Positions 22 to 12,668 of a stretch of 13,168 nt of DNA are shown piece after piece; positions within the stretch are counted from its first letter, which is position 1, and every line of letters begins with the position of its first letter. This stretch comes from Flavobacteriaceae bacterium. GTDB lineage: Bacteria; Bacteroidota; Bacteroidia; Flavobacteriales; Flavobacteriaceae. Position numbers and translations under genes: made by a program. The stretch covers positions 1-13,168 of the forward strand of contig NZQO01000109.1 of assembly GCA_002693605.1 (NCBI GenBank). Reading direction: 5' to 3'. Under the pieces are notes generated by a model. It searched no databases. It was given only the letters and a program-made list of their open reading frames with translations, and had not been told where the DNA came from.

Positions 22-101
22 GCTTAACGATTTTGCTTGTTAAGAAAACTAATTTACTTCTTTTCTATTAAACCCGCCATTTGCGATATACGTTGTTATG
101 C
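22..101. repeat. attC-like recombination site 1 (right half clear)
   Basis: The right end (ATATAC, GTT, then GTTATGC) matches the closing arm of the other sites in the window. The left end starts with GCTTAACG followed by ATTTTGC, like the opening arm AACG-GTTTTGC of the site at 11551. The central arms pair poorly, so the left limit is uncertain. GTTATGCAGC at 95-104 is the exact reverse complement of GCTGCATAAC at 691-700, bounding the toxin-antitoxin unit. Confidence 0.5.
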
Positions 102-693: not shown

Positions 694-821
694 GCATAAC
701 GCTAAGGCTATAAATCGTAGGGCCTTCAAAGTGAATAGTTGTCAGCCGTGGTAAAGAAACTACAAAGTACTGAACTTGCCAAATCTACTGCACGCCCTAT
801 GATTTATAGCTACTGTTATAT
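694..821. repeat. attC-like recombination site 2
   Basis: The opening end is GCATAACGCTAAG and the closing end TACTGTTATAT. The inner arms at 707-723 and 794-810 pair at 16 of 17 positions. On its left it closes the toxin-antitoxin unit (GCTGCATAAC, 691-700). On its right it opens the next unit, with GTTATATGGA at 815-824 matching TCCATATAAC at 1162-1171. The loop between the arms has no ORF. Confidence 0.7.
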
Positions 822-1164: not shown

Positions 1165-1257
1165 ATATAACGGGCAGCGTATAAGGCTCGTGGATGCGTA
1201 GCATACACAGGAGAGCCGATTGAGCTGCGCCTCGATGTGCCTTATGCGTTGTTAGGT
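1165..1257. repeat. attC-like recombination site 3
   Basis: It opens with ATATAACGGGCAGCGTATAAGGC and closes with GCCTTATGC, GTT, GTTAGGT. The closing GTTAGGT fits the classical integron core GTTRRRY exactly. Inner arms at 1177-1187 and 1239-1247 pair with a two-base bulge, as in known attC sites. The total length of about 93 bases is in the attC range. Confidence 0.75.
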
Positions 1258-1338
1258 GGCAGTTGCCCAGCGTTTAGCTATAATTGCCAAATAGACCACT
1301 ACGTTTCCCGATACGTAGCCATACGCTGCCCGTTAGGT
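1258..1338. repeat. inverted half-site inserted at a cassette boundary
   Basis: This segment of about 81 bases lies between two copies of GTTAGGT (1251-1257 and 1332-1338). Its right part, ATACGCTGCCCGTTA at 1321-1335, is a perfect 15-base reverse complement of the opening arm of site 3 at 1168-1182. It has no closing arm of its own, so it looks like an inverted partial site or an empty mini-cassette. Confidence 0.55.
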
Positions 1339-1593
1339 AGAATAGAGTGTAACAATAGAAATTTTAAAAATTATGCAAATAAACTTTTATCATTAGTTTG
1401 AACCAAAACTCAAAGAATATCAATTCTTTCTATTTCCAACTATAACTTTTGATGTGTCTAGTAGTTGGCAATATATGTATTATACTATTGATTTATCATT
1501 GTTCTTTTGGACAGTGGAAATAGTAATCACTAAAGAAACAAAGTGATTTTTAAAGTTTCGTTACACGTCACTCGATGGGCTATTCTACCTAAC
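1332..1593. other. cassette unit without a gene, bounded by 14-bp inverted repeats
   Basis: GTTAGGTAGAATAG (1332-1345) and CTATTCTACCTAAC (1580-1593) are perfect inverted repeats. A shorter inner pair follows (GTGTAAC near 1347-1353 and GTTACAC at 1560-1566). The interior is very AT-rich, has stops in all frames and shows no recognisable gene. It could be a non-coding cassette, a promoter cassette or a remnant. Confidence 0.65.
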
Positions 1594-1718
1594 GTGTTTG
1601 TGTATGATTTCGTTGCGTGGGTCAGCACGTATTTTAGCAAATAAAAACCGAATAGAAAATCCGCGAGGATTTTCGTAAGTAGGCTAGAAGTAGCAATAAA
1701 TTATATACGGTGTTGTGC
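1587..1718. repeat. attC-like recombination site 4
   Basis: It opens with CCTAACGTGTTTGTGTATGA and closes with ATTATATAC, GGT, GTTGTGC. The arms GTGTATGATTT and AAATTATATAC pair at 9 of 11 positions. GTTGTGCTT at 1712-1720 is the exact reverse complement of AAGCACAAC at 2209-2217, bounding the following unit. Confidence 0.65.
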
Positions 1719-2210: not shown

Positions 2211-2406
2211 GCACAACGGGTTTGTATAAGAACAGTAGGGCTGATTTGCACGCTATCCATTCGGTTGAACCACAAGCCGAATTTTTAAATTTTACTTATT
2301 ATTTTTTTTTGTCAATAAGCCAAATTTAAAAATTTGGCGGACTCGCAAATATGCCTTAACTTCGATTAAGCAACTCATTAGCTATGAGCTATATACGTTG
2401 TTGTGC
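2211..2406. repeat. attC-like recombination site 5
   Basis: It opens with GCACAACGGGTTTGTATAAG and closes with GCTATATAC, GTT, GTTGTGC. At nearly 200 bases it is longer than the others, and its arms pair less well, so there may be extra sequence in the loop. GTTGTGCGC at 2400-2408 is the reverse complement of GCGCACAAC at 3013-3021, bounding the lipoprotein unit. There is no gene between 2180 and 2438. Confidence 0.6.
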
Positions 2407-3014: not shown

Positions 3015-3081
3015 GCACAACGTTCCGTGTATGGTGTCGTAGCATCCCGTAGGGTGCTATGCACTATACACATTGTTGTGT
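3015..3081. repeat. attC-like recombination site 6 (compact hairpin)
   Basis: This is the clearest hairpin in the window, about 67 bases. It opens with GCACAACGTTCC, has arms starting GTGTATGGTG and ending CACTATACAC, and closes with ATT, GTTGTG. The arms pair over about 20 bases with bulged extra bases on the left arm, a hallmark of attC sites. It is the left boundary of the large defence unit: GTTGTGTTT at 3075-3083 matches AAACACAAC at 11549-11557. Confidence 0.75.
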
Positions 3082-3191
3082 TTTCGTGCTTTATTTTCAT
3101 TTTGTTTTTCAGCGTTGGGAAAGACACACTCTTTGACAAGTTTTGGCTCGTGCGGTTGGAATTATGTGCGACTTGGCAATGTGTGTGGCTA

Positions 3192-5516
3192 TTATGCATT
3201 GAAACCAGCATCTTCTAATCGAGATAAATGTCTTTTAATATTTTTTTCGTGAAAATCATTTAAAGCTTTAAGGCCATAAGCAAAATCTGCAACGTATTGT
3301 AATTCTTTCGCTGATAACACTTTCGCTTTAGTGTCCCACACTACCATTTTCGTGAGTAAATCCGAACTGATTTTATTGTTCGATTCAACTACTGGTAAAC
3401 TTGCAGCTTCTGAAACTTTAACTTCATCAAAGAAATTTGGAGAACCTGCCAGAATGTTTTCAATGATTTTTATAGCATCCCTTCTTTGGTTTTCAGACAA
3501 TACCTTATTCAAACGTAGAGAAGATTGAATATTAATTGCTCTGTCTTTTAGGTGTTGAGTCATGTTCTCAATTTCTGAGCCTATTTTGCTTATTTCGAGC
3601 CATTTGCTAATCGGTATGGATTTTACAAAATCTATTTCAGCTTGAACTAGTTGATTTTCCACTTCATCTTCCGTTATTCTTTTTCTTTTTTCAGACGATT
3701 TATTTTCTAGGTCAGTTTTCAAACTTTCTAGGTCAATATTAAAATCCTCATTCTTTATTGCATTCCAACATTCTTCTTTTTTTGCCCACTCGCCATATAA
3801 AGAGCCGGGTGCTCTATTTTTGATATAATCTTCAATTTTAGACATCACCTCATGGAGCTTGCTTTTAAGAATATCGCTCAAGGATTGTTGTTTCCAGATT
3901 TTGTATAGGTCAAGTTTATAGTCCAATTTTAAACTTAGCCAAGCTATAGAATAGGGGACTGTTATATATCGCATGTCACCAATTGCATTAGGTTTTACGC
4001 CATAAATTTTTTCAGCATTTTTAAATAATAATGCCTTTGCAATTAAATCCTCAAACCAAATGTTGTCAGGTTTGAAACTGAAATTATAATTTAGGAATTG
4101 AGCATAATTTTTTTGACTTCCCCTAACAACGATATGCGGTCCAATTACTAATTTTTTCCCGTAATAAATCTCTTCATAAGCATTAATATATTTTGCCAAC
4201 AACTCTTTAGTAAACATTTGAACTCGAGGGTTCTGCTTGTCAAATTGTTTCCGTTTTGATGGGGTTATTCCAAATCGATTTCTATCATTTTTATACTGAC
4301 CTCTTGAACGCTCAAAAAACCAACGTGTTTGAGTTGTTTCCCCTGAAACCGGAGGTGCCCAAATTGTTCTTGACAGTTTTTCAATCAGTACGTGATTTTC
4401 TCTATTCGAACTTAAATCTGAAGCTGAAACCCTATTTTGAGTATTTGCATATTCTGCTATACGACCAACAATTTCTGAAAAATTGTCCCTGTTTTTTACA
4501 ATCGTCAGTTTTACAGGAACAAACACATTGCTAATATCTATTTTATCTTTTTTCCAAGTGTGATATACAGATGCTGTTGTTTGACCGCCATTTACAATTT
4601 GAAAATCTTTTACTAGGGCAATTGCTTTTCCTTGATTGTTGGGTAAACCTGTTATGCTAACCTCTTCGGCAGTAGCAGCAATACCATTATTAAAGGCCAT
4701 AAACATATGTTGCTCTTTCAAAATAGTGTTACGGATTCCTTTATTTATTTTTCCAGTAAATTGAAGAAATGAACGAACATTTTGCTCAAGCAGTCTAGCT
4801 CCGTATTGCTCATAAATATCAGCTAAAGCAAGACCTGGAATAATTGCAAGCCAAGATTGATAATCTGAATTTTCCGTTTCATTCACAATACAAGGTACTT
4901 TGTAGCCTGATTGTTCAAAGTTTATTTCAATTGGAACTCTTGATTGATCCGAAAGATTGAAAAGATAATTAATATCTATTGTTCTATAAAAAACGGTGTA
5001 ACCTGCAACAGTATCCGAAGTTTTCAAATCAGCCTTTATTTCACCATTAGTAATTAAAAATATATTTACACGGGTTAAATATTCTTTAACTTCTGGAACA
5101 TTAGCCAAAGTTTGAGCCAAGTCAAATATTTCTGAACTTTCCTCAATATCATTTACGTAATCTTTATAAATAGCGTTTCTGAAAAATTTTACTGCTCTTT
5201 CAATAGCCTTGTCAGCATCACCTTTAGTAATACTTTGAATATTTGAATCACCATTATATATGGTTACAAATAAATCCAGTGTTTCGTAATTTTCATAAAG
5301 TGAATAGCCATTGATCTTATGCTCAACACCTCTTTTGCTAATCTTTTCATCAAAACAAACTCGATAGTTTTCTGTCTCGCCAGCATCTGATAAGAAGGAC
5401 AATGCTAATTCTGTAAAAACCTGCTCTGGATTTGTTCCTTCTTCTTCTGAAATTAGGTTTGATTTAATTTCTTCTTGAACATCTATATAAAATTTCTGTA
5501 ATTCCTTATTTTCCAT
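3192..5516 (-). CDS. AIPR (abortive infection phage resistance) family protein
   Basis: A 774-residue protein of the AIPR family (PF10592), named for AbiR-type phage resistance and found in operons with DNA methyltransferases, Z1 and DUF4420 proteins. Family landmarks are visible: QYGARLLEQNVRSFL at about 240-251, KINKGIRNTI at 256-265, FNNGIAATAEEV at 275-286 and IVNGGQTTAS at 307-316. NGGQTT resembles the DGQHR motif of DndB-like and ParB-like proteins. The biochemical activity is unproven. I chose ATG at 5516 (MENKELQKFY), 7 bases after the DUF4420 stop; a TTG at 5537 in the same frame would overlap that gene. It is the last gene of the operon, and about 110 gene-free bases follow before site 6. 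Confidence 0.88.
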   Translation of the reverse strand: MENKELQKFYIDVQEEIKSNLISEEEGTNPEQVFTELALSFLSDAGETENYRVCFDEKISKRGVEHKINGYSLYENYETLDLFVTIYNGDSNIQSITKGDADKAIERAVKFFRNAIYKDYVNDIEESSEIFDLAQTLANVPEVKEYLTRVNIFLITNGEIKADLKTSDTVAGYTVFYRTIDINYLFNLSDQSRVPIEINFEQSGYKVPCIVNETENSDYQSWLAIIPGLALADIYEQYGARLLEQNVRSFLQFTGKINKGIRNTILKEQHMFMAFNNGIAATAEEVSITGLPNNQGKAIALVKDFQIVNGGQTTASVYHTWKKDKIDISNVFVPVKLTIVKNRDNFSEIVGRIAEYANTQNRVSASDLSSNRENHVLIEKLSRTIWAPPVSGETTQTRWFFERSRGQYKNDRNRFGITPSKRKQFDKQNPRVQMFTKELLAKYINAYEEIYYGKKLVIGPHIVVRGSQKNYAQFLNYNFSFKPDNIWFEDLIAKALLFKNAEKIYGVKPNAIGDMRYITVPYSIAWLSLKLDYKLDLYKIWKQQSLSDILKSKLHEVMSKIEDYIKNRAPGSLYGEWAKKEECWNAIKNEDFNIDLESLKTDLENKSSEKRKRITEDEVENQLVQAEIDFVKSIPISKWLEISKIGSEIENMTQHLKDRAINIQSSLRLNKVLSENQRRDAIKIIENILAGSPNFFDEVKVSEAASLPVVESNNKISSDLLTKMVVWDTKAKVLSAKELQYVADFAYGLKALNDFHEKNIKRHLSRLEDAGFNA

Positions 5517-5523
5517 AAAAATG

Positions 5524-6525
5524 CTATTGTATTTCAATCAAAAGAGTTTCTTGGGTAATTCTCCATTCCTCTGATTCTGACAGGACAATGGAATATTTAA
5601 CATCACCGACACCAATTGGAATTTGGTTTTCAGTTATTCTAGGGAAATTTCCAGAAACACGATAAAGATTTTCTTGTCTAATTGTATAACCTTTTTCTTC
5701 GTATAAAGGTCTATGCGTTTCGTAATATCCAGATTCTAATAGTTTTAGTTTAAATAAATTGGAAGCCATTGTATTGTCATTCAACAATCCCGAAACTTCA
5801 TCAATAATTGAATTCAAAGATTCTCCATTTCCAACTCTTATGTCGAGTGAAAGATGGTACAGGAATATTTTTTCAATGATGGAATCATCCAATTGTCTTT
5901 CGCTAGTAATATGAATTTTTTGATGATTATTACCGTGGGTAGTTTTGACTTCAACTGCCCAATTTGAATACTGAAAGTCTTGTATTGATTTTTCAGGGCC
6001 AAGCCAGGATTTAAGGCAGTAATTTTTATCTGATGTATTATTCAAGAAAAAACGTAAAAAATAAATTTCACCGTAAAGACCTCTTTGTGCTTCATCTGAT
6101 AATCCTTGCTTGCCAACTTTTTCAAATAAGGATTGCCATTTCGCCAAACGTTCTAACAATTTTTCTACTAAAGTTTGCTCCGTTGTTACTTCTGACACTC
6201 CAAAAATCAAATCTTCACATAGGGTAGAAAAAATGTCTTTGTGCTGTTTGTTAAGTAATAGAATGAGTAAGAATTTCTTTGATTTATCTCTTTCATCCGG
6301 CAGTGTTTCTATCTTGATGTCTTTGAGTTTGTTCCATTGATTTTCGTCAAAAGAGAATGAGACACTTATTCTAAATGCAATACACCGCAGTTTTTCTGGA
6401 GCTTTTAAAGCAACAAACACATCAGGCAAAACTTCTGCGGAATATCGCTTATAAAGCAATCCTGAGTGACTGAAATTATCACCCTCTAAACCGAACCATA
6501 TATTTTCAATCTTCGTCATTTCCAT
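5524..6525 (-). CDS. PD-(D/E)XK motif protein (DUF4420)
   Basis: A protein of about 334 residues of the DUF4420 family (PF14390), predicted to have the PD-(D/E)XK restriction-nuclease fold. The core is visible in order: QRGLYGEIYFLRFFL with Glu153, then WLGPEKSIQDFQ with Asp183, then the beta strand WAVEVKTT with Glu192 and Lys194. This gives E, D and ExK of an intact active site. It is the most likely DNA-cutting subunit encoded with the Z1 ATPase. The frame is open to an ATG at 6591, but residues before 6525 have no family character. ATG at 6525 or 6519 (MTKIENIWFGLEGD) fits the family start and gives a short overlap with the end of Z1, suggesting translational coupling. The stop is 7 bases before the AIPR start. 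Confidence 0.85.
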   Translation of the reverse strand: MEMTKIENIWFGLEGDNFSHSGLLYKRYSAEVLPDVFVALKAPEKLRCIAFRISVSFSFDENQWNKLKDIKIETLPDERDKSKKFLLILLLNKQHKDIFSTLCEDLIFGVSEVTTEQTLVEKLLERLAKWQSLFEKVGKQGLSDEAQRGLYGEIYFLRFFLNNTSDKNYCLKSWLGPEKSIQDFQYSNWAVEVKTTHGNNHQKIHITSERQLDDSIIEKIFLYHLSLDIRVGNGESLNSIIDEVSGLLNDNTMASNLFKLKLLESGYYETHRPLYEEKGYTIRQENLYRVSGNFPRITENQIPIGVGDVKYSIVLSESEEWRITQETLLIEIQ

Positions 6526-8962
6526 AATCTTCGTCTTCTTCATTATCCTGTTCTTGATTGAATTGTGGCAACAATTCTTCATTAACAGCATATGATACTG
6601 GTGCGTTGTAATTACTTTTTGGGAAACTTATGGCATAACCAACAAATGGATTAATTCCTTTATCCATCGGATATTTCCAGAGACTTTCATCTGGGTCAAG
6701 CAAATAGAGAATGAGAAGTGGCTTTTTAGGGTCTCGTAAACTATTTCTTACTTCTAATCCATTAGGGTATTGAGGCACTCCTAGTTTCTTTCTCTTTTTA
6801 ATTGTCAATTCCATAGCATCCGCATATTCCTCTGGAGTGAAATCAATAAATTCATCCTTTGGACTGATTATGTGAGACTTTCTCAAATAATAAATTTCAG
6901 AACTGTCAGATAAGGATTCATCTTCTTTTCTTACCCATTGACCAATTTCAATATTATTGCCAGAGATAATGAATTTTGAGCTTTTGGATTTGGGTTTTGA
7001 CATAAGAGCAACACGCCAATCTGTTAATTCACCATTTCTTAATTGTGTGGTAATGAATTGAATTAATTTTCTAGGCTCAGCTTTTTTAAGGTTTTCCACA
7101 GATTGCATTCCTTCAAAAAAGTTGATAACTTGCTCTGCAGGTATATCATACCATACAAAAGCATTTGGCTTTGGGACAAAATGTGGCGGTAAAGTTTCTA
7201 TAAATTCTTGTGTGTTTTTGAAATTATTGTCAATCACAGAAATATTCTTCTTAAATTCATAAGATTCAACTAATCTCCCAGCCCAAGAAATTTGAACAGT
7301 AATTGCTGAACGCATTTTATTCGTTGCGGAAATTTGAAGTACACCGGGGTGTGTTCTTACTTTTAAAGCATATTGCTCAGGGGTAGAACCTGCCACATCT
7401 GTCATATAATCAAATTCTTCTCTAAGTTCTTCAGATGCTTGGGTAATATGGCAAAACCATTCATTCAACTCTCTACTGGTAAACAAACGGCATAAATCTA
7501 CATATCCACCTCTATATCCAAACCAACGTCCCATTTGCATCAAAGTGTCATACATTCTTGATGCTCGTAAGTAGTAACTTATAGAAAGACCTTCTAAAGT
7601 CAATCCTCTGGAAAGCTTATTCCCACCTACTGCGATAACTGATAGTCCATTTTTATGGTCAAAATAGTCAAGGGCTTCACCAGAACCACCATGGATTGAT
7701 TTCACTTCAATTCGTGCAGCAGCATCATTCAAATGTTGTAATACATCACACCATTGATGGACTTGAATTTGAGAGTCCAAATTTTTGAGTTCGGAATCTA
7801 AAATTTGTTGGGATACTGTTACAAAAGACCTATATCCATTTTCGTCTTGTTCAAATGTTGATTTAAACTCATCTAAAATAACTGAATCATTTTGGTCAAT
7901 GCCTCTTCTGTAATATATAAATTGATTAGACACAAGTTCCGCAATATGATCTTGCCAAAGCACAAACCTTGACACGTGAATAAGCATTGAGTTATGAACT
8001 ATAGTTTGACCTCTTAACCTTCTTATGGCACAAGTAATTATAAAGCAGCGAATTGCTATTTTTAAAGATTCGGGTAGCGAAGATGGTTTTTGGTCATCCT
8101 TTTTATGTCTATCGGGAACAAAATCGCTGTAATCATTGATTCTATTGACAATAGGAAGAACTGTATTGGAAGCTTCGTCTTCTTCCAATGGACTAAAACC
8201 AAAAACTTTTTCAGGGCCTATGTAATTTGAAGGTGCTGGAATATTCTTTATAAAGTTTCTTGGGAATAAGTTTTGGTCATCCAATGGAATAAAAATATTA
8301 GCGAATGGTGTGGCAGTATAACCGACATAAGCATTCTTACTAAAGAGATTAAGTATTTGAGTAATCCATCCGTTAATAGAACTTTGCCTTTCAGGATCGT
8401 TCGAAATATTAATGGAAGCGTTATCTGCCTCATCATCGATAAGTAAAAGGGATTTGTTCCGAATTACACGCACCAATCCGCTATCTTCATTAGCTTGTGC
8501 TCCCAACCATTGATAAATTCTACGAAGCACGTGCGGATTCTTTTTTATAACCGCAACAATAGGTTCAGAAGTGTTAAAGTTTAAACCTAATGCATTTGCA
8601 GCACCTTGCGTAAAGTCTCCCTTCTCAATGCTTGAAGTTAGAGAATGGGCTACTATAGGAGAGCCAAAGTAAGGGTCACCAACTCCAATCTGAATACTTC
8701 TTTGGTCAAATGCTCTGGTGTGTTGTGTGTCAAACCCTAAAAAACTTTCGTCAATTCTTATTTGTGTTTGGCTTCTGAGATTGTTATGAATTCCAGCTAA
8801 AACGATAATTAAACCAAAACCTGCATCAGCGGCTTTACAGATAAGCCCTGTATAATTAGCGGTTTTACCAGATTGCACTTGTCCAACTACTAATCCCTTT
8901 TTGTTAATTGTAGCTTTAAGTGAAGGGGCGAAAAAGTTGTCAAGGATGCTGGAATATTGAAT
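6506..8962 (-). CDS. Z1-domain ATPase, N-terminus apparently lost
   Basis: A Z1-domain protein (PF10593), a helicase-like P-loop ATPase found in restriction/defence operons. Counting from GTG at 8878, the motifs are: Walker A GLVVGQVQSGKT, straddling that codon; Walker B LLIDDEAD at 145-152; VGYTATPFAN at 185-194; VGGNKLSRGLTLEGL at 417-431; and QMGRWFGYRGGY at 448-459. The frame is open from 8962, just after a TAG, but no ATG, GTG or TTG occurs before 8878. A GTG start would cut through the P-loop and remove its beta strand. Relatives as I recall them carry some 100-150 residues before this motif; here only about 28 codons are available. Possible explanations are an ATT/ATC start, a +1 shift from the overlapping HNH gene, or inactivation. 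Coordinates give the open frame. Confidence 0.8.
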   Translation of the reverse strand: MQYSSILDNFFAPSLKATINKKGLVVGQVQSGKTANYTGLICKAADAGFGLIIVLAGIHNNLRSQTQIRIDESFLGFDTQHTRAFDQRSIQIGVGDPYFGSPIVAHSLTSSIEKGDFTQGAANALGLNFNTSEPIVAVIKKNPHVLRRIYQWLGAQANEDSGLVRVIRNKSLLLIDDEADNASINISNDPERQSSINGWITQILNLFSKNAYVGYTATPFANIFIPLDDQNLFPRNFIKNIPAPSNYIGPEKVFGFSPLEEDEASNTVLPIVNRINDYSDFVPDRHKKDDQKPSSLPESLKIAIRCFIITCAIRRLRGQTIVHNSMLIHVSRFVLWQDHIAELVSNQFIYYRRGIDQNDSVILDEFKSTFEQDENGYRSFVTVSQQILDSELKNLDSQIQVHQWCDVLQHLNDAAARIEVKSIHGGSGEALDYFDHKNGLSVIAVGGNKLSRGLTLEGLSISYYLRASRMYDTLMQMGRWFGYRGGYVDLCRLFTSRELNEWFCHITQASEELREEFDYMTDVAGSTPEQYALKVRTHPGVLQISATNKMRSAITVQISWAGRLVESYEFKKNISVIDNNFKNTQEFIETLPPHFVPKPNAFVWYDIPAEQVINFFEGMQSVENLKKAEPRKLIQFITTQLRNGELTDWRVALMSKPKSKSSKFIISGNNIEIGQWVRKEDESLSDSSEIYYLRKSHIISPKDEFIDFTPEEYADAMELTIKKRKKLGVPQYPNGLEVRNSLRDPKKPLLILYLLDPDESLWKYPMDKGINPFVGYAISFPKSNYNAPVSYAVNEELLPQFNQEQDNEEDEDYGNDED

Positions 8963-9713
8963 CTAAATGAAATTCAATAAAATCTTTTTTTGGATAATAT
9001 TTTGGAGGAAGTGATATTGCTTTATTCGCAAGGTGCGAAAAATATTGCTGATAGTAAGGTTTGTTTATATTCTGCTTCAACTTTTCGGAAATAATTATTG
9101 AGTAATCTAAATTTATTCCAATCAGGCCCTTATCAAAAGCCTTATCATATAAAGACGAAAGGCAAATGCCATTTTCAGGATTTAATCTTTCTTTTTCATT
9201 TTTGGACCAAGGAACTATGTGACTAGCTACAAGCAATTCAGGCATATCAATTCCAGAAATGGCACATTTACTGGAATAATTTGCGAGAACGATTTGACGA
9301 AAAACGTGTTGATTTACTCGAACTTTGACCTCTCTTATTTTGGATTCCCCAACTAGATTTTCAGTACCAATAAGTATATCAGCATACTTATTATCGATTG
9401 GATTTAATTCTCTATTTGCAAGAATATTTTCACTTTCAAAAAGTAATTCATCTTTGTTATCAATAAATTCTTGCCAAATTGGTTCAACTTGTTTTTTGCC
9501 TCCAGGCAAACCACCAATACCTCTATTTTGATGATAAGGGTCAACACTCGCAAAATTCACTAAACGCATTGCAATTGAACTTGGAGTTCTTTCAATAATA
9601 TTTGCTAAATGAATTACTTCTGGCGTTCTGGAATGCATTTTCCCAAAAGGCAACTTCAGATATAAATTCAAGGCGAGTATTAATTCTTCCCTAGTCCAAT
9701 TTCGTCTTTTCAT
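8940..9713 (-). CDS. HNH endonuclease, restriction-associated type
   Basis: A 257-residue HNH nuclease (HNH_2-like). The N-terminal domain (NWTREELILALNLYLKLPFG, TPEVIHLANIIERTPSSIAM, NFASVDPYHQNRGIGGLPGG) is a recurrent partner of this HNH type. The nuclease core is Cys150 (KCAISGI), LLVASHIVPWS with His165, RLNPENGICLSS with Asn181, and LYDKAFDKGLIGI. The last catalytic position has Tyr-Asp where many relatives have His-Asp. It probably cuts DNA, as a restriction nuclease or as a modification-dependent one. The ATG overlaps the stop of the 83-residue gene (ATGA), so the two are coupled. The end (DFIEFHLDSIFQHP) looks natural and overlaps the start of the Z1 frame by 23 bases. Confidence 0.85.
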   Translation of the reverse strand: MKRRNWTREELILALNLYLKLPFGKMHSRTPEVIHLANIIERTPSSIAMRLVNFASVDPYHQNRGIGGLPGGKKQVEPIWQEFIDNKDELLFESENILANRELNPIDNKYADILIGTENLVGESKIREVKVRVNQHVFRQIVLANYSSKCAISGIDMPELLVASHIVPWSKNEKERLNPENGICLSSLYDKAFDKGLIGINLDYSIIISEKLKQNINKPYYQQYFSHLANKAISLPPKYYPKKDFIEFHLDSIFQHP

Positions 9714-9961
9714 AGACTTACAAATTTTCCGTTTTCAAAATACTGCAAGTCAGTGCAGCCAAATTCACTTCCCAATAAATCCAATGGCTCGAATGAATCA
9801 TTTCTTGAAGCGATTCCTTCAAAATAGATATTTCTATCACCATCAAGTAATCTAAACTTGAATTTGAACTTTACTGAGATTTCCTTCATCTGACTAATAA
9901 TAAAATCTTTCGGGAATTCACTTGCAAGAAAAGGGGCGATATGTGTTATTCTGTAATACAT
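9710..9961 (-). CDS. 83-residue protein of unknown function
   Basis: A small protein with no domain I can name. Its visible pattern is a first half rich in Lys and Phe (ISVKFKFKFRLLDGD), then NIYFEGIASRNDSFEPLDLLGSEFGCTDLQYFENGKFVSL. The run of D-G, Y-FEG, SFEPLD, GCT-LQY and ENGK reads like a compact beta-sheet domain and looks conserved rather than random; I recall similar short hypotheticals, without a function. No signal peptide or membrane helix is present. It begins 11 bases after the methyltransferase stop and overlaps the HNH start by four bases (ATGA), so it is very probably an obligate partner of the nuclease, either a subunit or an inhibitor. The coupling is seen; the role is inference. 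Confidence 0.7.
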   Translation of the reverse strand: MYYRITHIAPFLASEFPKDFIISQMKEISVKFKFKFRLLDGDRNIYFEGIASRNDSFEPLDLLGSEFGCTDLQYFENGKFVSL

Positions 9962-9972
9962 TAGGTTAAATA

Positions 9973-11157
9973 TTATGCAGCCGTTCTGTTTGCACCCTCT
10001 TTTTCACCTTCGAAATAATAGTCGTCAGGAAATGATTGTAGGCGAGCTGCTTCTCTTACACTAAGGGATCTATTTTGTTTACTATCAGGATGAATATAAT
10101 AATGTCCATCTTTAGCAATATGAGCAACAACAGTTTGTGAGTATGGTAAATCCGCTGCTACAACTTTAAATCTGTCAAAAAATGAAGTACGATTTTGATG
10201 CGTTTTTAGTATTTCGGGTAAATCATTGTAGTTCAGACGCTCTTGTTTTTTCTCCCATTTCTGAACAGCGATTTTATAAATTTCCTTGTCTTGTTCTCTA
10301 TGTGGTCGTGCAACGTGTTGGGTTAAAATGTCAATCCCATTGCGTAAGGCGTGAGATTTGAGGTAGTCGGTTGTTTCTGTTCTGTACTTCAAAAATTTGT
10401 CTGCACCCTCTCCAGCTTTTATAACTGGCAAATCATTTAATAAATCTTTAACTAAATAATTACTTTCAGTTCCAATCTCTTCTAAGTTTGGAATATTAAC
10501 CTTTCTATTTTTTTGCCAACCAAGAATGACAATTCGTTTTCTATTTTGCAATACTCCAAAGTTTTTTGCTTCAAGGGTGTGCAGTTTTATTTGATAGCCT
10601 TTTTTGTTAAAAACCTTCGCCATTTCTTCGAGATAGTGACCACCTTTAGCAGATTTTAATCCCAATACGTTTTCAAATACAAACATTTTCGGCTTATACT
10701 TTTCCAAATATTCAGCATACTGAATAAAGAGATAATTCCTTGGATCACCTTCCATTTTAGTTTTCGACCGTGACCTCCCAACCAATGAATAGGCTTGGCA
10801 AGGTGGTCCACCAATAATCAAATCAACTTTTTGAGTTCCTAAGCATTTATCTATTTGATTTTGTATTTCCTTATTGTGTTCATCTCCGATTGGTGCATTG
10901 ATAACAGATTCTAAAACCTCATTAGGTACGCTTTTATAAAGCTCCTCACGAGTAATTTCTCCCTTGAGATATGATATGTATATTTTATTTTTCTTATTAG
11001 ATTTTAAATAATGATATGCAGCACGAGTTTTTAACGTGTTGCATGCAGATTTTTCGATTTCAACGTGGGCAATAGGTTCAAAACCAGCTTGGATAAATCC
11101 TTCTGAAAGCCCGCCTGCTCCCGCAAATAAGTCTATGAAATTCATCTTTTTACTCAT
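9973..11157 (-). CDS. DNA (cytosine-5-)-methyltransferase lacking motif X
   Basis: A 394-residue C5 DNA methyltransferase that would protect host DNA by methylating cytosine in the system's recognition site. Motifs in order: I, DLFAGAGGLSEG at 9-20, binding AdoMet; IV, GGPPCQ at 116-121 with catalytic Cys120; VI, ENV at 162-164; VIII, QNRKR at 204-208; a target-recognition region at about 220-360; and IX, REAARLQSFPD at 368-378. Family members continue after FEG...RTAA into a motif X segment with GNAVPP. Here the protein stops directly after RTAA, and no GNAVPP-like sequence follows in any frame nearby or at the N-terminus. Motif X normally completes the AdoMet pocket, so activity may be reduced or lost. 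ATG at 11157 overlaps the regulator by 8 bases; an in-frame ATG at 11145 is also possible. Confidence 0.88.
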   Translation of the reverse strand: MSKKMNFIDLFAGAGGLSEGFIQAGFEPIAHVEIEKSACNTLKTRAAYHYLKSNKKNKIYISYLKGEITREELYKSVPNEVLESVINAPIGDEHNKEIQNQIDKCLGTQKVDLIIGGPPCQAYSLVGRSRSKTKMEGDPRNYLFIQYAEYLEKYKPKMFVFENVLGLKSAKGGHYLEEMAKVFNKKGYQIKLHTLEAKNFGVLQNRKRIVILGWQKNRKVNIPNLEEIGTESNYLVKDLLNDLPVIKAGEGADKFLKYRTETTDYLKSHALRNGIDILTQHVARPHREQDKEIYKIAVQKWEKKQERLNYNDLPEILKTHQNRTSFFDRFKVVAADLPYSQTVVAHIAKDGHYYIHPDSKQNRSLSVREAARLQSFPDDYYFEGEKEGANRTAA

Positions 11158-11356
11158 GATGTTGAGGCTTATTTGATATGATTAATTCTTTAACATCTAT
11201 GTCTAATATATTTGCTATTTCCATTAGTATTTCAAGTCTTGGCTGTTGTCTATTCTGTACATATCCATTTACCATATTGTAACTTTTTCCAAGTTTCTCG
11301 GCTAGCCAAGTTTGTTTTATTCCTTTGTCTTCAAGCACTTCTTTTATTCGGTTCAT
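11150..11356 (-). CDS. XRE-family transcriptional regulator
   Basis: A 68-residue single-domain Cro/C1-type helix-turn-helix protein. The HTH spans about residues 13-47: KQTWLAEKLGKSYNMVNGYVQNRQQPRLEILMEIANILDI. This size and position, first gene before a DNA methyltransferase, is that of a controller protein, which times expression of restriction and modification genes after entry into a new host. It overlaps the methyltransferase by 8 bases. A 19-base palindrome about 45 bases upstream is the best candidate binding site. No Shine-Dalgarno sequence is seen before the ATG. Confidence 0.85.
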   Translation of the reverse strand: MNRIKEVLEDKGIKQTWLAEKLGKSYNMVNGYVQNRQQPRLEILMEIANILDIDVKELIISNKPQHHE

Positions 11357-11400
11357 GTCCGTCTAAATTTAAGGAGCTAAAATAACCCAAAATTTCCGTT

Positions 11401-11419
11401 TATATTGTTTTTCAATATA
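11401..11419. promoter_or_regulatory. palindromic operator candidate upstream of the regulator
   Basis: TATATTG-TTTTT-CAATATA is a perfect 7-base inverted repeat with a 5-base spacer, centred about 54 bases before the XRE start codon. Dyads of this size are typical for Cro/C1-type controller proteins. A promoter is expected here because about 190 gene-free bases precede the operon, but I could not place its elements with confidence. Confidence 0.55.
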
Positions 11420-11462
11420 CTTTTAGTTCGTTTTCTTGTTGGTCTGTCCTAGCGTTGGCAAA

Positions 11463-11524
11463 AAATAGCTCTTTTGGTTTTTTAGCGTTTGCCTGTGTGT
11501 GGGCAAAAACCAAATGTGCTATTT
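11463..11524. repeat. hairpin with 20-base arms at the operon's upstream end
   Basis: The arms at 11463-11482 and 11505-11524 pair at 17 of 20 positions (AAATAGC, three mismatches, then TTTGGTTTTT). The loop region holds a second small inverted repeat (TTTGCC and GGCAAA). It lies between the cassette boundary and the operator. It could insulate the operon from upstream transcription or be a non-coding RNA fold; its role is unknown. Confidence 0.6.
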
Positions 11525-11550
11525 GTACGGTGGCTCTGTTTTCGCATGAA

Positions 11551-11680
11551 ACACAACGGTTTTGCATATGGCGCGTTGCCGATTCTTAGCTAATTTAACA
11601 AAAACGCCCGAACGTTTCCCATATTTTTGCTTTTCGGAAAATATACGGAGCCGGGCAATGTGTTATATGCGTTGTTACCT
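11551..11680. repeat. attC-like recombination site 7
   Basis: It opens with ACACAACGGTTTTGCATATGG and closes with GTTATATGC, GTT, GTTACC. The arms GCATATGGCGCGTTGCC and GGCAATGTGTTATATGC pair at about 13 of 17 positions. It is the right boundary of the defence unit. GTTACCTTA at 11674-11682 matches TAAGGTAAC at 11948-11956, bounding the next unit. Confidence 0.7.
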
Positions 11681-11949: not shown

Positions 11950-12079
11950 AGGTAACGGTTTGCATATGGCTTGTGGCGGGTTCCAAGCACTTTCCTGTCC
12001 ACCGAAATCCAGGCTGGCTACGGAGCGAAAACCTTGTTAGCAGACGTTCACACGCCATAAGCTATATGCGTTGTTGGCA
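11950..12079. repeat. attC-like recombination site 8
   Basis: It opens with AGGTAACGGTTTGCATATGGC and closes with GCTATATGC, GTT, GTTGGCA. The arms at 11962-11978 and 12053-12069 pair at 15 of 17 positions. GTTGGCAGTA at 12073-12082 is the exact reverse complement of TACTGCCAAC at 12533-12542, framing the SRPBCC unit. Confidence 0.75.
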
Positions 12080-12534: not shown

Positions 12535-12668
12535 CTGCCAACGTTTAGTATAACCGCAGTTACGGGATAAAATTTAATGTTTTTCGGATAAGCACCGACG
12601 GTAGCAATTACGCGTGGATTCGGACGCAGTCGAATCCGCCGTAATTGCGGTTATACATTGTTGTGCAA
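12535..12668. repeat. attC-like recombination site 9
   Basis: It opens with TGCCAACGTTTAGTATAACC and closes with GGTTATAC, ATT, GTTGTGC. The arms at 12548-12565 and 12639-12656 pair at 17 of 18 positions, the best long pairing in the window. The loop contains a second inverted repeat (GGATTCG and CGAATCC near 12616-12638). Confidence 0.8.

Follow-up and report, generated by a model that had tools for sequence, protein, structure and literature searches.

The 13,168-bp stretch of DNA analysed here (the window) is the entire contig C110 of a Flavobacteriaceae metagenome-assembled genome (MAG), G000 (161 contigs, 2.19 Mb, 68% complete), and carries on its minus strand a seven-gene operon of 8.5 kb, related to the MZA anti-phage systems, which we interpret, with a probability of about 0.83, as one gene cassette of an integron-like array. 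The observation is real and unusual. The array is truncated by the contig ends on both sides, and its minus-strand reading gives nine sites with an R'' (...AAC) and an R' (GTT...) element, S1 to S9; the proposal, made previously by a sequence-only reading, that the operon lies between two consecutive attC-like sites is confirmed, S7 and S6 bordering the unit. The sites and the cassette are the following:

26..97, minus strand: weak attC-like site S1, at the contig end and missed by the scanner.
698..817, minus strand: attC-like site S2, from scanner and folding.
1169..1334, minus strand: attC-like site S3, from the scanner.
1591..1714, minus strand: attC-like site S4, from the scanner.
2215..2402, minus strand: attC-like site S5, from the scanner.
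3019..3077, minus strand: attC-like site S6, the operon cassette's own attC, a bulged hairpin (-10.1 kcal/mol, z -2.86) identical at 52 of 59 positions in the Bacteroidales locus L096.
3021..11556, minus strand: operon cassette (leader, operon, trailer and its own attC S6), delimited by matching ends and by the limits of homology to L096.
11555..11676, minus strand: attC-like site S7, belonging to the preceding GC-rich non-coding unit, with its R' GTT (11557-11555) as the operon cassette start.
11954..12075, minus strand: attC-like site S8, from the scanner.
12540..12662, minus strand: attC-like site S9, from scanner and folding.

Sites were detected by a pattern search and a purpose-built scanner, after a covariance model (R1), in which the loops of the sites were shortened, had been dropped; this model retrieved just two places in the own genome at E<=1, a weakness that we attribute to the long loops of the real sites. 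An Rfam search of the window returned nothing near a gathering score. The scanner gave 12 hits in the window, some sites being counted on both strands, versus 3.3 in shuffled sequences; it detects S6 and seven other sites and has no hit within 3081-11549, inside the operon unit, where a degraded site would have spoken against a single cassette. Six sites were folded as single-stranded DNA, of which S9, S6 and S2 form arms stabler than shuffles; S8 also folds into arms, yet its stability is no better than that of shuffles, and the stability of S4 is due to an inner hairpin. Like an integron cassette, the operon unit ends in an attC with an R'' AAC, an R' GTT and complementary arms. Furthermore, closure of a cassette circle at G|TT implies that the cassette starts with bases complementary to its own R'', and this match between start and R'' was found in all eight units of the window, with exact runs of 9 to 14 nt. 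When the start-end pairings were permuted, the observed score was reached in 1 of 40,320 arrangements, by the true order alone, and the start of the operon unit fits best with its own end, so that its ends do match in the way proposed for the small units. The unit spans 8,483 bp from the R' GTT (11557) to the R'' AAC (down to 3075), and the cassette 8,536 bp from the T of G|TT at 11557 to the G of the next GTT at 3021.

Comparison with a second genome supports the same borders. In L096, from the Bacteroidales MAG STCSWMC_213, the operon aligns in two blocks of 81.6 and 84.5% nucleotide identity, and the match starts at window position 11557, the first base of the cassette GTT, and stops at 3018, one base beyond the next GTT. 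The first 200 bp of the cassette are identical at 163 of 205 positions and the attC at 52 of 59; the flanks are at chance level (31/67 for the 60 bp before the cassette, 36/70 for the 60 bp after it; shuffled mean 0.54). Therefore, leader, operon, trailer and attC moved together, with borders as predicted, and the same cassette is found in another context with G|TT at both borders in this one genome, itself a MAG. An unrelated genome shares this unit and its borders, a sign that entire defence systems can be exchanged by arrays of this kind. The idea of a single cassette gains further support from Fermentimonas sp. NTP30 (L090), where an 85% identical operon constitutes one array unit of 9,337 bp with its own matching ends and a different attC, three further sites lie upstream, and the leader and most of the trailer accompany the operon. 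More distant operon relatives in L099 and L105 (AIPR proteins at 67% and 58%) also form single units, of 10,911 and 9,702 bp, the matching ends being of 9 nt in the operon units of L090, L099 and L105; in L091, L092 and L107 an attC-like site follows the operon and the start is unmatched. A close relative of the operon occurs as well in L132, a MAG of the window's own family, Flavobacteriaceae. These loci come from a search with the AIPR protein that yielded 77 loci in named genomes, among the best 80 of 85 stretches, 70 of them with enough downstream sequence for the site test and seven too short. A site scoring at least 12 follows the operon in 7 of the 70 (L090, L091, L092, L096, L099, L105 and L148) and in none of five shuffled sets, and a site scoring at least 8 within about 900 bp in 9 of the 70, versus 1 to 4 in the five shuffled sets. 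The AIPR protein had no relative among viral contigs, and the two neighbours of the operon unit joined directly in a strain without it were not encountered, the species being represented by a single strain.

The operon unit is about ten times as long as a typical one. That it would be far larger than usual cassettes had been anticipated, and this is borne out by 93 cassettes of related arrays, whose median length is 787 bp and 90th percentile 2.8 kb; the count excludes L075 (a repeat of L188), L073 (on no good ground), five of 98 end-matched pairs, dropped for an intervening site, and the L105 unit, which has a hit inside, its neighbouring pairs overlap somewhat, and L090 and L099 are included though they were fetched for their MZA operon. 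All five cassettes above 4 kb contain restriction-modification (R-M) or other defence-model genes, two of them (L090 and L099) having been chosen for the MZA operon. Large cassettes in relatives carry a Type III R-M system (5,409 bp), a Type IIG enzyme with an AAA_13 protein (5,646 bp) or a PifA-like KAP NTPase (4,177 bp); a 5.6-kb Type IIG and AAA_13 cassette is the first matched one in L188 (G084:C9, 1889-9278), where the array follows a tyrosine recombinase. Among five cassettes of 2.5 to 4 kb, one has an N6-methyltransferase and one, by eye, a TonB receptor. A second array of G000, on contig C10 (L026), has a unit of about 5.9 kb (3681 to 9614) holding a Type I R-M system (hsdR, a 144-aa gene, hsdM and hsdS), whose last site is degenerate, AAT replacing AAC.

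The operon is flanked within its cassette by two non-coding elements:

11458..11529, minus strand: conserved leader hairpin with T-run, separated from the R' CGTT of the cassette by about 39 nt.
3075..3191, minus strand: non-coding trailer, which contains the CCAACGCT motif and has a homologous counterpart in the C10 Type I R-M cassette.

Both elements are common to the window and C10 cassettes (leader, score 95 versus a maximum of 51 in 200 shuffles; trailer, 75 versus a maximum of 47 in 200 shuffles), despite the genes of the two cassettes being unrelated. The leader consists of an AT-rich hairpin and, behind it, a T-run. In an alignment of 18 loci, 95.8% of the pair cells are standard and 7 of the 17 pairs have changed on both sides, with a covariation score of 0.238 versus 0.080 in shuffles (0/500) and at most 0.060 when slid, a difference that relatedness alone could produce; the count of further pair types is no higher than in shuffles (164/500), and most of the 18 loci were picked by T-run, A-run and nearby fixed letters, which favours pairing at some positions. 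The covariance model built on these loci matched in 82 of the 199 family genomes (best E-value 1e-18), and the hairpin occurs five times in G000 (window, C148 twice, C10 and C12). The pattern is seen in 29 of 30 leader loci returned; CGTT[AG] lies at most 90 nt upstream in 23 of these 29 and, in 21 of the 23, at 36-40 or 67-69 nt, the position expected for a cassette start. Genes following the leader matched our library in 15 of 25 cases (proteins of R-M or of other defence models in 14 and a TonB receptor in one, with ten unmatched), this library being small, drawn from loci fetched here and R-M-biased, with 5 of the 14 defence matches being its source loci. We infer that the leader would be a terminator insulating the cassette. 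An alternative is that the operon entered an older small cassette, to which the cassette ends would then belong, by another mechanism, such as a transposon or recombination, illegitimate or homologous, involving the inner CCAACGCT repeats: leader and trailer carry a common motif in direct orientation and both are common to the C10 cassette, which fits an exchange of cargo, and the homology of the operon to G360/L132 is limited to the genes, without leader or trailer. This origin is nonetheless quite unlikely, given that leader, trailer and attC travel with the operon in L096, and leader and most of the trailer in L090, and that no transposase gene was seen among the open reading frames of the operon unit; even if the origin were such, the present unit has moved as a cassette.

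As for the recombinase, canonical IntI was set aside, since no genome searched had a match to TIGR02249 above the cut-off, neither among the 149 genomes of the search for relatives, the own one included, nor among 16 genomes with arrays or MZA operons; the latter include G142, which is a single contig and where the scanner has 18 same-strand hits in 19 kb, and G160, stated to be 100% complete, in which the sites extend across about 33 kb, the scan covering all but some 2 kb of these. An IntI with its specific insertion in the same genome, one mark of a complete integron, was accordingly not found, a weak negative for G000 at 68% completeness; the arrays look like integrons by anatomy and fail the IntI test as usually defined. 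A tyrosine recombinase family (PF00589 with PF13495) adjoins arrays in the relatives: at least one matching-end unit was present in 13 of 20 recombinase loci (18 genomes), versus none of 16 control stretches located about 0.4 Mb away in 14 of the recombinase genomes, and none in 21 shuffled array loci. The 20 stretches were chosen by hand, mostly high-scoring ones on long contigs, from matches in 71 of 246 genomes, and one of them (G452, which is L173 of G378) is also in the query alignment. The site nearest to the recombinase lies at 0.3 to 2 kb in 11 of the 13 loci and at 2.6 and 3.3 kb in the other two, and the array continues from the recombinase gene in 10 of the 13, pointing away in L229, L237 and L247. 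In Fermentimonas the array also points away from the recombinase, with one site 1.4 kb from the gene and then 6 kb free of scanner hits between that site and the operon array.

These array-linked recombinases align with both XerA and IntI (PDB 5hxy, 2a3v). In the members measured, the KGxKDR box and HxLRH are separated by 64 to 65 residues, compared with 72 in two Xer-like proteins, and where the alignment of the Fermentimonas protein with IntI4 (PDB 2a3v) resumes after 21 residues, IntI4 needs 64, i.e. 43 extra residues between the aligned blocks. Two of three array-linked recombinases score above the cut-off of NF040815 ('site-specific tyrosine recombinase/integron integrase'), and two of the three measured have an N-terminal extension (domain starting at residues 71 and 93), unlike the Fermentimonas protein.

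Several observations weigh against the interpretation of the operon as a cassette of an integron-like array. Both IntI (TIGR02249 above the cut-off) and the array-linked recombinase family were missing from G000, a weak absence in a genome 68% complete, and 7 of the 20 recombinase loci had no unit under the criteria applied. The stability of S7 is no better than that of shuffles. Scanner hits scoring 7 to 11 occur inside the units of L096, L099, L105 and C10 (one to four each; none in L090), which we take as chance because window shuffles give 1.4 hits of score at least 8 per 13 kb. The match to L090 extends 27 bp beyond the cassette start, into the preceding attC arm. In 61 of the 70 relatives with enough sequence there is no attC-like hit (score at least 8) within about 900 bp downstream, and most MZA operons sit outside cassettes. 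In addition, the L096 cassette is preceded by no attC and immediately followed by an IS91-type element, so that it may have been inserted there by another route. This IS91-family element (L096 12507-14605), with its own tyrosine recombinase, begins at the R' after the cassette (GTTGAACTAAATC); as the letters after the attC of L099 are nearly equal to those at its start, the element may target or use attC-like sites, and its presence in L096 may reflect an insertion at a single site or be a sign of its taking part. The IS91-linked recombinase, whose gene starts about 85 bp after the L096 cassette, has 33 to 43% identity to the array-linked ones, which share 33 to 45% among themselves, and could itself be regarded as the integrase; we prefer the array-linked family because in Fermentimonas its member adjoins a site without an IS91 gene as next neighbour. 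It is, on the other hand, very improbable that the sites are passive repeats, for instance an intergenic palindromic family, in an array that is no recombination platform: the lack of the right kind of recombinase in G000 and the weak folding of some sites would agree with it, but the cassette-specific matching ends, the homology border and the linkage to recombinases of one family are predicted by an integron and not by a passive repeat.

The operon in the window comprises these genes:

11150..11356, minus strand: XRE/Cro-type regulator of 68 aa (HTH_26, HTH_3), also in L096 and L090.
9973..11157, minus strand: C5-cytosine methyltransferase of 394 aa, ending prematurely.
9710..9961, minus strand: 83-aa protein, first gene of a replacement module, from a protein search.
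8940..9713, minus strand: HNH_2 endonuclease of 257 aa, second gene of the replacement module, from a domain match.
6506..8878, minus strand: operon gene between the HNH_2 and DUF4420 genes.
5524..6591, minus strand: DUF4420, PD-(D/E)XK protein (MzaD-like) of 355 aa, from a domain match.
3192..5537, minus strand: AIPR protein (MzaE-like) of 781 aa, from a domain match.

The statement that the operon has its own regulator is corroborated by the XRE/Cro-type gene and its counterparts in L096 and L090. The further claim, that a multi-gene anti-phage system would be mobilised as a cassette, is supported as to its movement by the cassette borders in L096. As to the system itself, the copy in the window is a chimera and probably non-functional as an MZA system. 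The PADLOC models MzaC, MzaD and MzaE matched in the operon, all under the NCBIfam equivalog cut-offs (591/1500, 141/420 and 404/1050 bits). A GHKL (MutL-like) ATPase is a feature of the MZA system, and relatives have a C5 methyltransferase and this ATPase upstream, whereas the window copy has the HNH module and no ATPase, no match to it appearing among the window proteins in domain and PADLOC model searches; it is present in L090 (HATPase_c_3). The methyltransferase has lost a C-terminal stretch that is present in L090, L096 and L132. Relatives of the HNH module were found in 33 of 395 genomes, the own one included; of twelve HNH loci returned (the own and eleven others, with 1.5-kb flanks) only that of the window has the 83-aa gene, and in L276 a distant methyltransferase (28% identity) adjoins the HNH gene. 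The 83-aa protein matched 37 proteins, one of them identical, and seven of the 37, to judge by an equal length of the longest contig, probably share a contig with an HNH relative. It seems unlikely that the operon is a functional system of its own, a new type of defence with HNH in place of the GHKL ATPase, rather than a damaged MZA system, even though the genes for the 83-aa protein, HNH, AIPR and DUF4420 are all intact and the first two seem to go together elsewhere. DISARM, characterized by DrmA, DrmB and DrmC, was also set aside as an identity: among the best 25 of 63 families, only the methyltransferase of the seven operon proteins matches a DISARM model (DrmMII). The same genome contains a second, distant DUF4420 relative (27% identity) at G000:C107 12731-13456.

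Sedentary chromosomal integrons of Vibrio, presented as defence libraries (Darracq et al. 2025 and Getz et al. 2025, via the review PMC12409362), are likewise arrays of attC-bounded cassettes, a share of them anti-phage systems, with small streamlined defence genes and a notable absence of larger systems of more than two genes (PMC12409362). In contrast, up to seven genes and about 11 kb occupy one cassette here, Bacteroidota make up most of the hosts, and the recombinase linked to the arrays has no IntI insertion, a feature reported to be essential to IntI itself (PMC8138268). Bacteroidota are listed among the integron-bearing phyla in a review (PMC8618304), and IntegronFinder 2.0 named one complete integron in Bacteroidetes, that of Salinibacter ruber M1 (PMC9024848), which shares the phylum and the attC arrays with our case; unlike that single integron, the recombinase family and its adjoining arrays occur in many Flavobacteriales. 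A Chryseobacterium genome paper reports no integron with IntegronFinder (PMC13063519), and a different member of the genus, Chryseobacterium lacus (G378), carries such an array. One survey joined attC sites if less than 4 kb apart (PMC9668308), a rule that would break up an array containing cassettes of 5 to 11 kb. Our literature search, with most subscription journals outside its scope, recognised no paper on large defence cassettes or Flavobacteriales integrons. It is somewhat more probable than not, in our view, that Bacteroidota have an integron class of their own, largely overlooked, with a recombinase devoid of the IntI insertion that can move cassettes of up to about 11 kb, arrays that serve as platforms for the exchange of complete multi-gene defence systems, and, at the start of these cassettes, a conserved insulating leader hairpin conferring independence from an array promoter.

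In the mechanism that we propose, a tyrosine recombinase would insert and excise the cassette through its folded attC, the circle being closed at G|TT and hence R'' and R' of an attC coming from the same cassette and matching. The most likely candidate for this enzyme is the Bacteroidota family whose genes adjoin such arrays, a family akin to IntI and XerA that lacks the IntI-specific insertion. The array would consist mostly of small cassettes with a few very large ones, each bringing a complete defence system; the operon cassette would bring its own regulator, its leader hairpin probably blocking read-through from upstream cassettes. Later, recombination would have placed the HNH module where the ATPase gene stood, damaging the MZA-like system. 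Single cassette positions are taken up by systems that have two to seven genes and measure 5 to 11 kb, mostly in Bacteroidota, in one case with borders fixed by a two-genome comparison. The size limit assumed for cassettes would change accordingly, R-M and MZA systems would have a concrete route of spreading, and attention is drawn to a recombinase for which the IntI insertion may be dispensable in handling folded attC sites; surveys requiring a canonical IntI and a site spacing below 4 kb could miss or split such arrays.

Among the small units of the window, that at 1331-1592 is a 262-bp non-coding unit formed mostly by an inverted repeat (second palindrome at 1351-1562), and the non-coding unit at 814-1170 contains, at 841-975, a 67-bp repeat in two direct copies with 79% identity. 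The unit at 112-631 contains two small overlapping genes with no match in NCBIfam and PADLOC, which by eye we take to resemble a ParE/RelE-type toxin and its antitoxin.

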